Position numbers and translations under genes: made by a program. From the NCBI GenBank assembly GCA_019894955.1, contig JAGXNQ010000006.1, positions 1-40,182 of the forward strand: a stretch of 40,182 bases of DNA, in the 5' to 3' direction. The DNA comes from Promethearchaeota archaeon (GTDB taxonomy: Archaea; Asgardarchaeota; Lokiarchaeia; Sigyniarchaeales; SOKP01). This document shows, one piece after another, positions 10,679 to 38,993 of this stretch (position 1 is the first letter of the stretch; the number at the start of each line of letters is the position of its first letter). The notes under the pieces were generated by a model. That model had not been told where the DNA came from and did not search any database. It was given only the letters and a program-made list of their open reading frames with translations.

Positions 10679-11212
10679 TTAATCACCGATAGGATATTTC
10701 TCAAAAAGAGTGTCTGTCATGACCTCAAATGCTTTCTCTACGTTTTGTCCAGTCTTAGAAGAGAGTTCTATAAATGACTTTAGACTATATGTTTTAGCGG
10801 CTTGAATCCCCTCCTCTCTTGATACGGCACGATATTCCTCCAAATCAAGTTTAGATCCTATTAACATTATGGGTATATCTCCAGCATGTTCTCTAACGAG
10901 TTGAGTCCAAGCAGGAAGATGTTCGAGGGTTCTATTATTTGTGATATCATAAAGGAAAAATGCAGCATTTGCACCTTTACAATATTGAGAAAGCAAGAAT
11001 CGGAATCTTTCTTCACCACCAAAATCCCAAATTTGTAGTTTTACCCTGTGAATGTTATGAAAAATGACGTTTTTTGAATAAAAATCTACTCCAATGGTTA
11101 GTTTTAGATCGCGAAGGAAATAGCCAGAAATGAATCTTATCGTTAAGGAGGTCTTCCCAACGGAAGCATCTCCAAGCATCATAACTTTAAAAGTATAATC
11201 GAAATCCGTCAA
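10679..11212 (-). CDS. Rab-like small GTPase (TTG start)
   Basis: The 177-residue G domain has G1 GDASVGKT (14-21), switch-I Thr39 in TIGVDF, WDFGGEE (62-68), G4 SKLD (120-123) and G5 SSK (151-153). The Ras Gln61 position is Glu67. The Asn of NKxD is Ser. The TIGVDFYSKN and CKGANAAFFLYDIT segments are Rab-like. No C-terminal cysteine is present. The first codon is TTG at 11212, preceded by AAGGAT. An in-frame stop lies just upstream and the next Met falls inside the first beta strand, so the TTG start is well supported. Confidence 0.92.
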   Translation of the reverse strand: MTDFDYTFKVMMLGDASVGKTSLTIRFISGYFLRDLKLTIGVDFYSKNVIFHNIHRVKLQIWDFGGEERFRFLLSQYCKGANAAFFLYDITNNRTLEHLPAWTQLVREHAGDIPIMLIGSKLDLEEYRAVSREEGIQAAKTYSLKSFIELSSKTGQNVEKAFEVMTDTLFEKYPIGD

Positions 11213-24096: not shown

Positions 24097-25683
24097 TTAT
24101 TCATTATTTTTAAAGGTCGGATCATCTAAATCATTTTCTAAAAATGCATTCTTTCTATCTGTGCAAGGTTTACATTCATTGCAAGGTTTCTTAAAATCCC
24201 CGTAACAACTCCAAGTAAATTCAAATGGTAAATTCAGTTCCTTTCCTAATTTAATCACTTCTGATTTAGTTAGATTAATTAAAGGCAGCAAAAAATGGAC
24301 TCGAGTTTTATCTGAAGCATGTTTTGAATCATTTATCAGACTTATAAGGTCGGTGAAGAACTTAGGTCTCGCATCAGGGAAGGTGCTCGTATCTTTCATA
24401 ATGTGCCCTCCGATGATAAGTTCGCATCCATAGGTTTCTGCAAAGTAGGCTGCAACAGAATAAAATACTAAATTTCTCATTGGGATAAATCCTTGAGGTG
24501 CTTGAAATACCGAAGGTATGGGATACCCTTCCATTTTAAGATCTGTAGCTTGCTGCATAAAAATGAATGGCACTTCGATTAATTTAATATTTGTTAATTC
24601 GGTAAGCTTTCTAGCAGCGGTAATCTCATTTTTTGCTCGCCATTGGTATAATAATGAAAGGGCAATGATCTCGTAACCTTGATTGATTCCCCAATATAGA
24701 GCCGTAGCTGAATCAATACCTCCTGAAAGCAATAGAATTGCTCTTTTCTTTGTGTTAAATTTAATATTCGTACCGATTTTGGTGGAAATTGCGGCATCTA
24801 TCGCTACTGATAATGGAGTCAATTCAAATCCTAAATCATTAGTAGTAATATTACCATTAGGAGTTAAATCACATCGCATTACATCAACCATTTCTGCACA
24901 GATATCTAGTTTTTCAGGTGCTTCCTCATAAGATATGTGTGTTATTTTGGGTCTTGGTACGTTAAAGCCAAATTGACTCAGTTTTTTAATTACCAATTCA
25001 ACTAAATCATTCATAGTAATAATTTGTGGTCCTACGAGATCATAAATCCTGTTGATATGTCTTTCTTCTGAGGTTGCTGATAGAAAAGCGGTAATTGCAT
25101 CATTCAAGTATATGGGTTGCATTGGAATATTCCCATCTCCAGCGATAATCACCTCTCCATCCACAATTTGATTAATTATCTCAGGAATCAATTCATCATG
25201 AGGACCTACGATGTAAGAGGGTCTAAAAATTATGTAAGGAATATTTGCTTGCTTTAAGATTTTTTCAGCTTCGAATTTAGACCTAAAATATTCATTTTTA
25301 GCCCATTCTACTATATTGTATTTATCAACCCCTAATCCTGATGGATAAATAATTTTCGAAACATTAGCTATTTTAGCAGCTTCCAGAATGTTCTTTAGAC
25401 CTTGAATGTTCACTTTTTCAAATATTTCTTTAGACCCACAAACAATATTAGCAAAATGAAGGATTGCAGTACAATTTTCGAAAGCTTCTGTTAGTGATGG
25501 AATTTCAAAGTTTTTAACTAAAAACACTTTTGAACCTAATAATTGGAGCTCTTTTATGACCTCATTTCTCCTAACAATTGCATTCACATCCCAATTTTGT
25601 GAAAGTGCTTTTTTTATTGTTCCCATGCCGAGGTATCCATTAGCTCCTGTTATGGCAATTTTCTTTTTTTTCATAATACACAT
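24097..25683 (-). CDS. queC: SDR epimerase/dehydratase fused to QueC (7-cyano-7-deazaguanine synthase)
   Basis: One uninterrupted 528-residue frame holds two enzymes. Residues 5-300 are an extended SDR: TGANGYLG (12-19) for NAD(P), a YFRSK active-site pair (Tyr132, Lys136), and VGPHDELIPEI. Residues 313-515 are QueC: LLSGGIDS (318-325) PP-loop, QGFIPMRN, GGHIMKDTSTFPDARP, and the zinc site Cys493/501/504/507 ending CTDRKNAF. QueC converts CDG to preQ0, the precursor of archaeosine in tRNA. queD starts divergently 170 bp away. The SDR role is unknown. ATG at 25674 (MKKKKIAITG) is an alternative start. Confidence 0.88.
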   Translation of the reverse strand: MCIMKKKKIAITGANGYLGMGTIKKALSQNWDVNAIVRRNEVIKELQLLGSKVFLVKNFEIPSLTEAFENCTAILHFANIVCGSKEIFEKVNIQGLKNILEAAKIANVSKIIYPSGLGVDKYNIVEWAKNEYFRSKFEAEKILKQANIPYIIFRPSYIVGPHDELIPEIINQIVDGEVIIAGDGNIPMQPIYLNDAITAFLSATSEERHINRIYDLVGPQIITMNDLVELVIKKLSQFGFNVPRPKITHISYEEAPEKLDICAEMVDVMRCDLTPNGNITTNDLGFELTPLSVAIDAAISTKIGTNIKFNTKKRAILLLSGGIDSATALYWGINQGYEIIALSLLYQWRAKNEITAARKLTELTNIKLIEVPFIFMQQATDLKMEGYPIPSVFQAPQGFIPMRNLVFYSVAAYFAETYGCELIIGGHIMKDTSTFPDARPKFFTDLISLINDSKHASDKTRVHFLLPLINLTKSEVIKLGKELNLPFEFTWSCYGDFKKPCNECKPCTDRKNAFLENDLDDPTFKNNE

Positions 25684-25854
25684 TCCATAGTGATTAAATC
25701 GGCATATTTAAAGATTATTTAAAAAGTTTTTAAAAAATATGATTATAACATATAGCTTGATTTAATTAAAAAAATCCATTTATGATTTTCAATGAAAAAA
25801 TATTTAAATTCGTAAAATTAAATCATACCATCCCTCAATCTTAACTGATAAAAT

Positions 25855-26313
25855 ATGAAGTATAAAGTCTTGATTAACTCAAGTGAAATAAATTTTAGCG
25901 CTTGTCATTTTCTTAAAGAACCCCAGAAATGTTCCAGGCTCCACGGACATAATTATTACGTGTCTGCTGAAATAGGATCTGATTTAAATGAAAATTCTTT
26001 TGTGGTTGACTTTTTCGAACTTAAAAAAGAACTTAAAACAATTATCGAACCACTTGATCATTTTATTTTAATTCCTGAAAAATCTGAGAATCTAAATATC
26101 GAGATCAAGAATGAGAGCATAAAGATCATTACTAAAAGTGGAAAAAAATATGTATTCCCTTTTTCTGATGTCAAATTTCTTCCATTACCTGCTACAACAA
26201 GTGAGTTACTCGCAAAATACCTTCATGATCAATTAAAATTAAGATATGTTGATAAGAAAATTAAGGTTAAAATAGAAGAAAGTAAGAGTACTTGTGCTAT
26301 TTACGAGGATTAA
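25855..26313 (+). CDS. queD: QueD / 6-pyruvoyl-tetrahydropterin synthase family
   Basis: The 152-residue protein carries the zinc ligands and catalytic Cys of 6-carboxytetrahydropterin synthase: ACHFL near residue 20 and CSRLHGHNYYV, in which the Cys precedes the HGH pair by four residues. The VVDFFELK and PLDHF segments and a C-terminal CAIYED with the substrate-binding Glu follow. QueD makes 6-carboxy-5,6,7,8-tetrahydropterin from dihydroneopterin triphosphate for preQ0 synthesis. A TATA-like ATATTTAAA at 25800-25808 precedes it. It faces the QueC fusion divergently and ends 3 bp from the convergent DHQ synthase gene. Confidence 0.9.
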   Translation: MKYKVLINSSEINFSACHFLKEPQKCSRLHGHNYYVSAEIGSDLNENSFVVDFFELKKELKTIIEPLDHFILIPEKSENLNIEIKNESIKIITKSGKKYVFPFSDVKFLPLPATTSELLAKYLHDQLKLRYVDKKIKVKIEESKSTCAIYED

Positions 26314-27591: not shown

Positions 27592-28242
27592 ATGGGAATT
27601 AAAAAGAAATTATTTCCGAGAAAAGGACAAGAGAAGGAAGAACTCGTAATGAAAGCAAAAGCTCATATTCGCAAGATGGCTCTCGCGAATAAAACATATA
27701 GCAAAAGATCAGAAATTGCAAGAAAGAATGCCAAAATTGCGTTGAAACGAGGTGAAAGGACTAGAGCGAAGAATTATTTGATCCAATTTAAGCAATATCA
27801 ACAAAAAGTGGACCGTGCTAACAATATTCGAGCAAAAATAGAGAGAACTTTAGAAGCGGTAGAAGAAGGCAAAATGATTGCTATGACTGGAGATTTAATG
27901 GGGGGTATTCGCGATGAACTTCAAGATATTTCGACTAAAGTTGCTCCCGAAAAAATTGCAGTAATCGCCGAAGACTCTGAGGCATATGTTGCTGAGATAG
28001 AGGAATCAGCTGAAATATTAGCTGGTGACCCTGAGATTGACTTAGCTATTGATGTGACAGATGAATTAAATCAGCTTGAAACCGAAATGTTATTAGATCA
28101 AGGAGGACAAATCCCTGAAGTGCCTGCAGACGATTTACAATACATTTCAGAGTTTGATCTTGAAGAAGAAGAGCCTGAAATACGGACAAAAGCTAAACTA
28201 GAAGACGAAATAGATAAATTGCGAAAAGAGCTTGAATCATAA
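27592..28242 (+). CDS. Snf7-domain ESCRT-III protein
   Basis: The 216-residue protein starts with a basic MGIKKKLFPRKG segment and a long helical hairpin: KTYSKRSEIARKNAKIALKRGERTRAKNY (helix 1), then LIQFKQYQQKVDRANNIRAKIERTLEAV (helix 2), both typical of Snf7/CHMP cores. Helix 3-5 are acidic (AEDSEAYVAEIEESAEIL). Two tail motifs resemble MIT-interacting motifs: IPEVPADDL at 174-182 (MIM2-like) and EDEIDKLRKEL near 204-214 (MIM1-like). ESCRT-III filaments remodel membranes in division and vesicle scission and are disassembled by Vps4, which is not encoded here. The gene is divergent from DHQ synthase and convergent with the zinc-finger protein. Confidence 0.88.
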   Translation: MGIKKKLFPRKGQEKEELVMKAKAHIRKMALANKTYSKRSEIARKNAKIALKRGERTRAKNYLIQFKQYQQKVDRANNIRAKIERTLEAVEEGKMIAMTGDLMGGIRDELQDISTKVAPEKIAVIAEDSEAYVAEIEESAEILAGDPEIDLAIDVTDELNQLETEMLLDQGGQIPEVPADDLQYISEFDLEEEEPEIRTKAKLEDEIDKLRKELES

Positions 28243-38462: not shown

Positions 38463-38993
38463 ATGAGCCAATTAAAAAAATTTGTGTTTAAAATTGTTGT
38501 TGTTGGAGATGGAGGTATTGGAAAAAGTACAATGATACAACGTTTGATTACTGGAAGATTCATTGAACAGAAGATAACAATTGGAACTGATTTAGCTAGT
38601 TGGAGCATAAATTTAGATGATTTAGCAATAAGGCTTCAAATTTGGGATTTTGCTGGGGAGAAGCGCTTCCGTTTCTTTTTACCAAACTATTCCAGAGGCG
38701 CGGATGGCTGCTTGCTCTGTTATGATATTACAAGATATACAAGTTTTCAGAATCTTCAAGAGTGGTATGATATTATTAAGGAAAACACTTCAAATCCCGG
38801 ATATGTACTTGTTGGTGGAAAAGTCGATTTAGCCGATTCGAGAAGGACTGTTCAATTAGAAGAGGCTGAAGAGTTCCAAAATGAATATAATATTCCTTAT
38901 CATTTTGAAACGTCAAGCAAATCTGGTTATAAGACAAATGAAATATTTGAAACTTTAACTAGACTAATCCTAAAAAAAAGAAATTTAATATAA
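38463..38993 (+). CDS. Rab-like small GTPase
   Basis: The 176-residue G domain has G1 GDGGIGKS (15-22), Thr39 in TIGTDL, WDFAGEKRF (61-69), G4 GKVD (119-122) and G5 SSK (151-153). The Ras Gln61 position is Glu66 and the preceding DxxG reads DFAG. The Asn of NKxD is Gly. No lipid-modification cysteine is present at the C-terminus (KKRNLI). SRGADGCLLCYDIT resembles Rab-family sequences. FrhB-like protein converges on it with a 14-bp gap. Confidence 0.92.
   Translation: MSQLKKFVFKIVVVGDGGIGKSTMIQRLITGRFIEQKITIGTDLASWSINLDDLAIRLQIWDFAGEKRFRFFLPNYSRGADGCLLCYDITRYTSFQNLQEWYDIIKENTSNPGYVLVGGKVDLADSRRTVQLEEAEEFQNEYNIPYHFETSSKSGYKTNEIFETLTRLILKKRNLI

Follow-up and report, generated by a model that had tools for sequence, protein, structure and literature searches.

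Archaea are known to join QueC to a second catalytic domain: in the GAT-QueC archaeosine enzymes of Crenarchaeota, the partner is an amidotransferase. To our knowledge, no extended or atypical SDR has been reported fused to a PP-loop ATPase of the QueC kind, and no earlier description of an SDR–QueC fusion was found in the literature searched, subscription papers lying outside that search.

Canonical QueC proteins share the signature SGGxDS, YxQxHxxE, VPxRN, YPDC and a zinc motif (2026 family survey, PMC13329287). Residues Y35, R99, Y131 and Y189 are essential in E. coli QueC, with Y131F partly active (PMC13329287), and in the Cap9 and B. subtilis QueC structures a Tyr stacks on the deazaguanine while an Asp reads its Watson-Crick edge (N1/N2) (PMC13279940). 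QueC was recently shown to be reused in immunity for protein modification, and the SDR–QueC proteins described here represent a further remodelled lineage.

The fusion gene lies in a 40,182-nt stretch of a Promethearchaeota archaeon contig (JAGXNQ010000006.1; hereafter the window), as a single frame of 528 aa with 0 internal stops (Table 1). Pfam assigned the N-terminal half to Epimerase/SDR (residues 9-208, E 2e-18), with NmrA and NAD_binding_10 as further matches, and the C-terminal half to QueC (PF06508, residues 314-517, E 5e-49). This agrees with the initial annotation, which had proposed an SDR and a QueC in one polypeptide; the fusion recurs in 24 genomes, and each of the motifs that the annotation listed is present (TGANGYLG, Tyr132/Lys136, SGGIDS and zinc cysteines 493/501/504/507). 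Met4 is a likelier start than the first codon because relatives begin at a Met directly preceding "(I/V)AITGANG". The window also encodes proteins characteristic of Asgard archaea, namely an Snf7/ESCRT-III protein and Ras-like small GTPases (27592-28242, 10679-11212 and 38463-38993).

Table 1. Features of the SDR–QueC locus, in window coordinates
Feature	Position	Strand	Remarks
SDR–QueC fusion gene	24097..25683	-	528 aa; Met4 (25674) is the likelier start
SDR domain, residues 4-300	24784..25674	-	Gly motif 25627-25650
Ser115/Tyr132/Lys136 of SDR domain	inside 25276-25341	-	
Short linker, residues 301-312	24748..24783	-	helix end and low-confidence 305-311
QueC-family domain, residues 313-528	24100..24747	-	
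PP-loop SGGIDS, residues 320-325	24709..24726	-	
FPDAR, altered substrate motif, residues 435-439	24367..24381	-	YPDCR in canonical QueC; Asp437 kept
Zinc site C493-x7-C501xxC504xxC507, with Tyr494	24163..24207	-	
Intergenic region separating queD from the divergent fusion gene	25684..25854	.	171 bp, AT-rich, 19% GC
queD, PTPS family, CxxxHGH, head-to-head partner	25855..26313	+	catalytic Cys, Asp-His and Glu retained

Collectively, both the SDR–QueC architecture and its divergent lineage are new within a well-known fold, and the function proposed below is putative.

Distribution and conservation of the fusion

To follow up the suggestion that the same fusion be sought in Asgard genomes, we surveyed the phylum and identified it in 24 of 228 genomes, all from the window's order. 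Ten carriers belong to the window's genus, 10 to the second genus of the same family, 1 to family f3 and 3 to family f4. In one second-genus genome (G155) the fusion lies on a single 3.3-Mb contig, and the very N-terminus is missing from the G158 copy. Identity to the window protein is 53-57% within the family and 34-37% in the f3/f4 members compared.

Pairwise dN/dS across seven pairs was 0.09-0.24 for the SDR half and 0.07-0.23 for the QueC half, and purifying selection thus acts on both. Recurrence in 24 genomes together with dN/dS of 0.07-0.24 places the fusion far beyond chance and argues against a frameshift. The fusion is ancient and conserved, with the predicted catalytic cores retained in both halves. 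One genome of family f2 (G040) carries the halves as separate, unlinked genes, the SDR on contig 15 and a QueC-like gene on contig 2; this arrangement may represent either the pre-fusion state or a later split.

The SDR half displays a Rossmann fold, TGANGYLG and a complete Ser115-Tyr132-Lys136 triad, features of extended/atypical SDRs that bear out its earlier description as complete. The three triad residues are invariant wherever the region is present (24 fusions and 2 standalone SDRs), and Arg38, following strand 2, suggests NADP(H) as the cofactor. The best sequence and fold matches are the NDUFA9 (complex I 39-kDa) family and other SDRs; HpnA, 2-alkyl-3-oxoalkanoate reductase, triphenylmethane reductase and NDUFA9 share the complete triad, but identity in structural alignments is only ~15-22%. 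The AlphaFold2 model (14 homologues) comprises two confident domains (pLDDT 85.8) whose mutual placement is uncertain (pTM 0.62), and Foldseek matches obtained with the full fusion model were dominated by the SDR half.

Spread by viruses was considered and rejected: QueC relatives on viral contigs have no upstream SDR, and 73 of 84 viral QueC frames carry YPDC/FPDC. A seemingly longer match at one viral locus (L253) proved to be an ordinary QueC.

Motifs and phylogeny of the QueC domain

With residues numbered by alignment to E. coli QueC, the fused domain shares with the canonical enzyme its fold, domain length and TWSC motif. The SGGxDS phosphate-binding loop is invariant across the 24 fusions, all of which retain Y35, E42, D133, K165 and the four zinc cysteines (C-x7/8-CxxCxxC). 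VPxRN is present as (V/I)Px(R/K)N, position 99 being R or K.

Two motifs differ from those of canonical QueC. YxQxHxxE keeps its Tyr and Glu, but Q37 and H39 are replaced in every fusion (YxWxAxxE in the window protein). YPDC has become F/L-P/S/N/L-D-A/S/T/V/I (FPDA in the window protein), with C134 lost throughout and Y131 changed to Phe in the window's family and to Leu in f3/f4. The window's family retains Y189, for which f3/f4 have Glu or Ala. The initial view of a complete QueC therefore holds for the PP-loop and the zinc cysteines but not for these two motifs, and the window protein scores below the TIGR00364 equivalog cutoff (140 versus 150.3 bits). Of the canonical Asgard QueCs aligned, all display the full signature except G053 (Ser for H39) and G176 (YPDTT).

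In the phylogenetic tree, all fused QueC domains cluster with the G040 homologue, itself a long branch, with 100/100 support, and canonical QueCs from Asgard archaea and E. coli fall outside this clade. The retained Asp, combined with the loss of Q37, H39 and C134, indicates that the predicted base-reading residue is kept while what surrounds it is altered. In sequence terms, the QueC half keeps what would read a 2-amino-4-oxopyrimidine (Asp437) within a putatively remodelled substrate pocket.

Association with queD and separation from QueE and TGT

Wherever the locus is intact, both genera of the window's family have the fusion gene head-to-head with queD, although the other neighbours differ between genera. 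In G018, the contig ends at the fusion and queD sits at the end of another contig; the f3/f4 fusions do not adjoin queD. GH57, 3-dehydroquinate synthase II, zinc-ribbon/CPBP, dNK and Snf7 genes were rejected as partners, since their synteny is confined to one genus and absent from the second genus's loci. This leaves queD as the sole partner conserved across fusion contexts, and queD with SDR-queC forms a defined two-gene system.

Counting the family members in the relatives set, we found QueD in 11 of 11 genomes with the fusion, 6 of 6 with canonical QueC and 1 of 20 lacking QueC. The comparison of fusion carriers with QueC-less genomes (Fisher p 1e-7) ignores kinship, and such non-independence inflates co-occurrence statistics. 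Joint loss gives a second line of evidence: at three second-genus loci (G144, G149 and G157) the fusion is reduced to a C-terminal remnant of 90-106 aa, with one zinc Cys replaced in two, and queD is gone from two and frameshifted in G149. The G149 locus (L207:5670-6393) displays a decaying module, comprising a frameshift-split queD and a 91-aa remnant whose last zinc Cys is Trp.

The QueDs that partner the fusion form one clade (99/95) nested within the family's canonical QueDs, as expected if the fusion settled beside a pre-existing queD and took it over. Their alignment revealed CxxxHGH, the Asp-His pair and the C-terminal Glu, with no conserved Gly2.

Canonical loci in the window's family are arranged queC-queD-queE, and canonical QueC co-occurs with both partners. 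Fusion genomes of this family have QueD, but profile searches recovered QueE in 0 of 11, compared with 6 of 6 genomes with canonical QueC (p 8e-5; mostly draft genomes). Nor did any genome of the second genus, the one-contig G155 included, give a QueE-like match. All three profile searches found QueE in the canonical-QueC genomes, and one also matched distant controls.

Weak radical-SAM matches were rejected as QueE candidates: similar ones occur in genomes without any QueC, a ~250-aa family from several fusion genomes is NrdG-like at its N-terminus and has no SxQGEG, and the G015 match is a glycyl-radical activase. The family's canonical QueE (L081:8095-8958, L082:8818-9681 and L083:5782-6645) is itself unusual, at ~287 aa with a cluster-Cys spacing of C-x11-CxxC and an insert, and scores far under the cutoffs of QueE models.

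Besides the fusion, f4 genomes carry queC in its canonical form together with a queD and a short gene resembling queE; given this full canonical set, the fusion there does something else or is redundant. One of them (G045) encodes about six QueD-like genes.

TGT and ArcS-like genes are common across the family, QueC-less genomes included, and occur in most fusion genomes. The presence of arcTGT is independent of the module (15 of 20 genomes with it and 17 of 22 without, many of them incomplete): G155, G030 and G015 have the module and no arcTGT match, while G144, G149 and G157 kept arcTGT and lost the module. This independence makes it less likely that the module mainly serves to produce archaeosine. 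Lokiarchaeal genomes with TGT and ArcS-like genes and none of QueC, QueD and QueE are numerous (G002, G004, G014, G028, G029, G034 and others), implying that preQ0 is salvaged or that the base comes from elsewhere. All 11 fusion genomes that the relatives set includes from the window's family have a GTP cyclohydrolase, belonging to one or the other enzyme family.

Candidate functions of the module

Tentatively, and with a probability somewhat short of even, we predict that the substrate of the QueD–SDR/QueC module is a QueD-type pterin or another carboxylate that is not CDG, which would be amidated and either reduced or oxidised. QueD would form 6-carboxytetrahydropterin (CPH4) or a related 6-substituted pterin, whose 2-amino-4-oxopyrimidine face could be held by Asp437 of the QueC half, with Phe435 stacking on it. 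The QueC half would use ATP to activate the carboxylate and ammonia to yield an amide, perhaps a nitrile, and the same small molecule may undergo NADP(H)-dependent reduction or oxidation at the SDR half. Because the ring contraction by QueE would be skipped, the product would not be preQ0.

This prediction draws on the conserved fusion, the adjacency and co-loss of queD, the failure to find QueE, the remodelled pocket and the GTP cyclohydrolase common to the family's fusion genomes. The main unexplained observation against it is the split pair of G040, a genome in which QueD, QueE and canonical QueC are all undetectable; the f3/f4 fusions, which lie away from queD, also count against it. A more specific version, in which a neofunctionalised QueC amidates or nitrilates the QueD product and the SDR adds a redox step, so that a QueE-independent Lokiarchaeal pterin branch would yield a pterin cofactor or base precursor not yet described, is unlikely as formulated. 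In these archaea, which are kin to the ancestors of eukaryotes, fusion, adjacency and co-loss tie the remodelled QueC lineage to a pterin enzyme, cut off from QueE.

In the main rival reading, the fused QueC could still turn CDG into preQ0 for use in archaeosine, while an enzyme not recognised as such stands in for QueE and the SDR is an accessory or regulator. We consider this rather unlikely, but it retains some weight because window-family proteins keep, or replace with tolerated residues, what is essential in E. coli: Y35, R99 or Lys, Y189 and the partly active Y131F (PMC13329287), alongside E42 and Asp133. Within that family the fusion and canonical QueC are also mutually exclusive, the adjoining QueD derives from the canonical cluster, and most fusion genomes encode arcTGT and ArcS-like genes. 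However, Cys134, Gln37 and His39 are missing from every fusion, arcTGT is unrelated to the module, and the full canonical set also occurs in f4 genomes. Three profile searches whose positive controls worked failed to detect QueE, and the best matches examined in fusion genomes look like NrdG-type activases. The initial annotation had suggested that the SDR might act on a deazapurine; the adjacency and co-loss of queD favour a connection with the pterin/deazapurine branch, but the absence of QueE and the independence of TGT speak against plain preQ0/archaeosine synthesis. QueC–QueD pairs should accordingly not all be annotated as archaeosine synthesis.

It is less probable still that ammonia is not the amine to which the QueC half couples a carboxylate; the acceptor would then be the N-terminus of a protein, following Cap9, or a sugar, following the WbpG-like group, and would be supplied or tailored by the SDR. 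Such reuse of the family has precedents (PMC13279940, PMC13329287). The PADLOC QueC (defence) model gives the fused domain, a short one, 82 bits versus 57 for a canonical Lokiarchaeal QueC. Extended SDRs include many nucleotide-sugar enzymes, and SDR family membership is the sole pointer to the sugar-nucleotide substrate that had also been suggested. Like the fusion, Cap9 and QatC reuse the QueC scaffold with altered substrate residues, but neither has an SDR domain. Cap9 (type IV CBASS) retains YxDC, which the fusions have lost; QatC has Thr residues, N- and C-terminal extensions and qatABD neighbours, and the fusion has neither such extensions nor such neighbours. No CD-NTase, QatB, glycosyltransferase or other defence partner is conserved beside the fusion, where queD alone is. 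Moreover, CDG would be lacking without QueE, and QueD has no conserved Gly2.

A sequencing or assembly error joining two genes is practically ruled out: the source assembly is a MAG and G040 has two genes, but G040 is the only relative in which separate genes were found, the 23 others being fused, and the 24 fusions come from separate genomes and many assemblies, a one-contig genome among them, with both halves under purifying selection.

Altered QueC proteins were also observed outside the fusion clade. G112 (L210:3939-6377) carries a queD-queE-queC operon followed by a divergent QueC paralogue with DYGDA in place of YPDCR, another altered QueC lineage among Asgard archaea, and G176 (L194:1306-2034) encodes a standalone QueC in which YPDTT replaces YPDCR and the other motifs are canonical.
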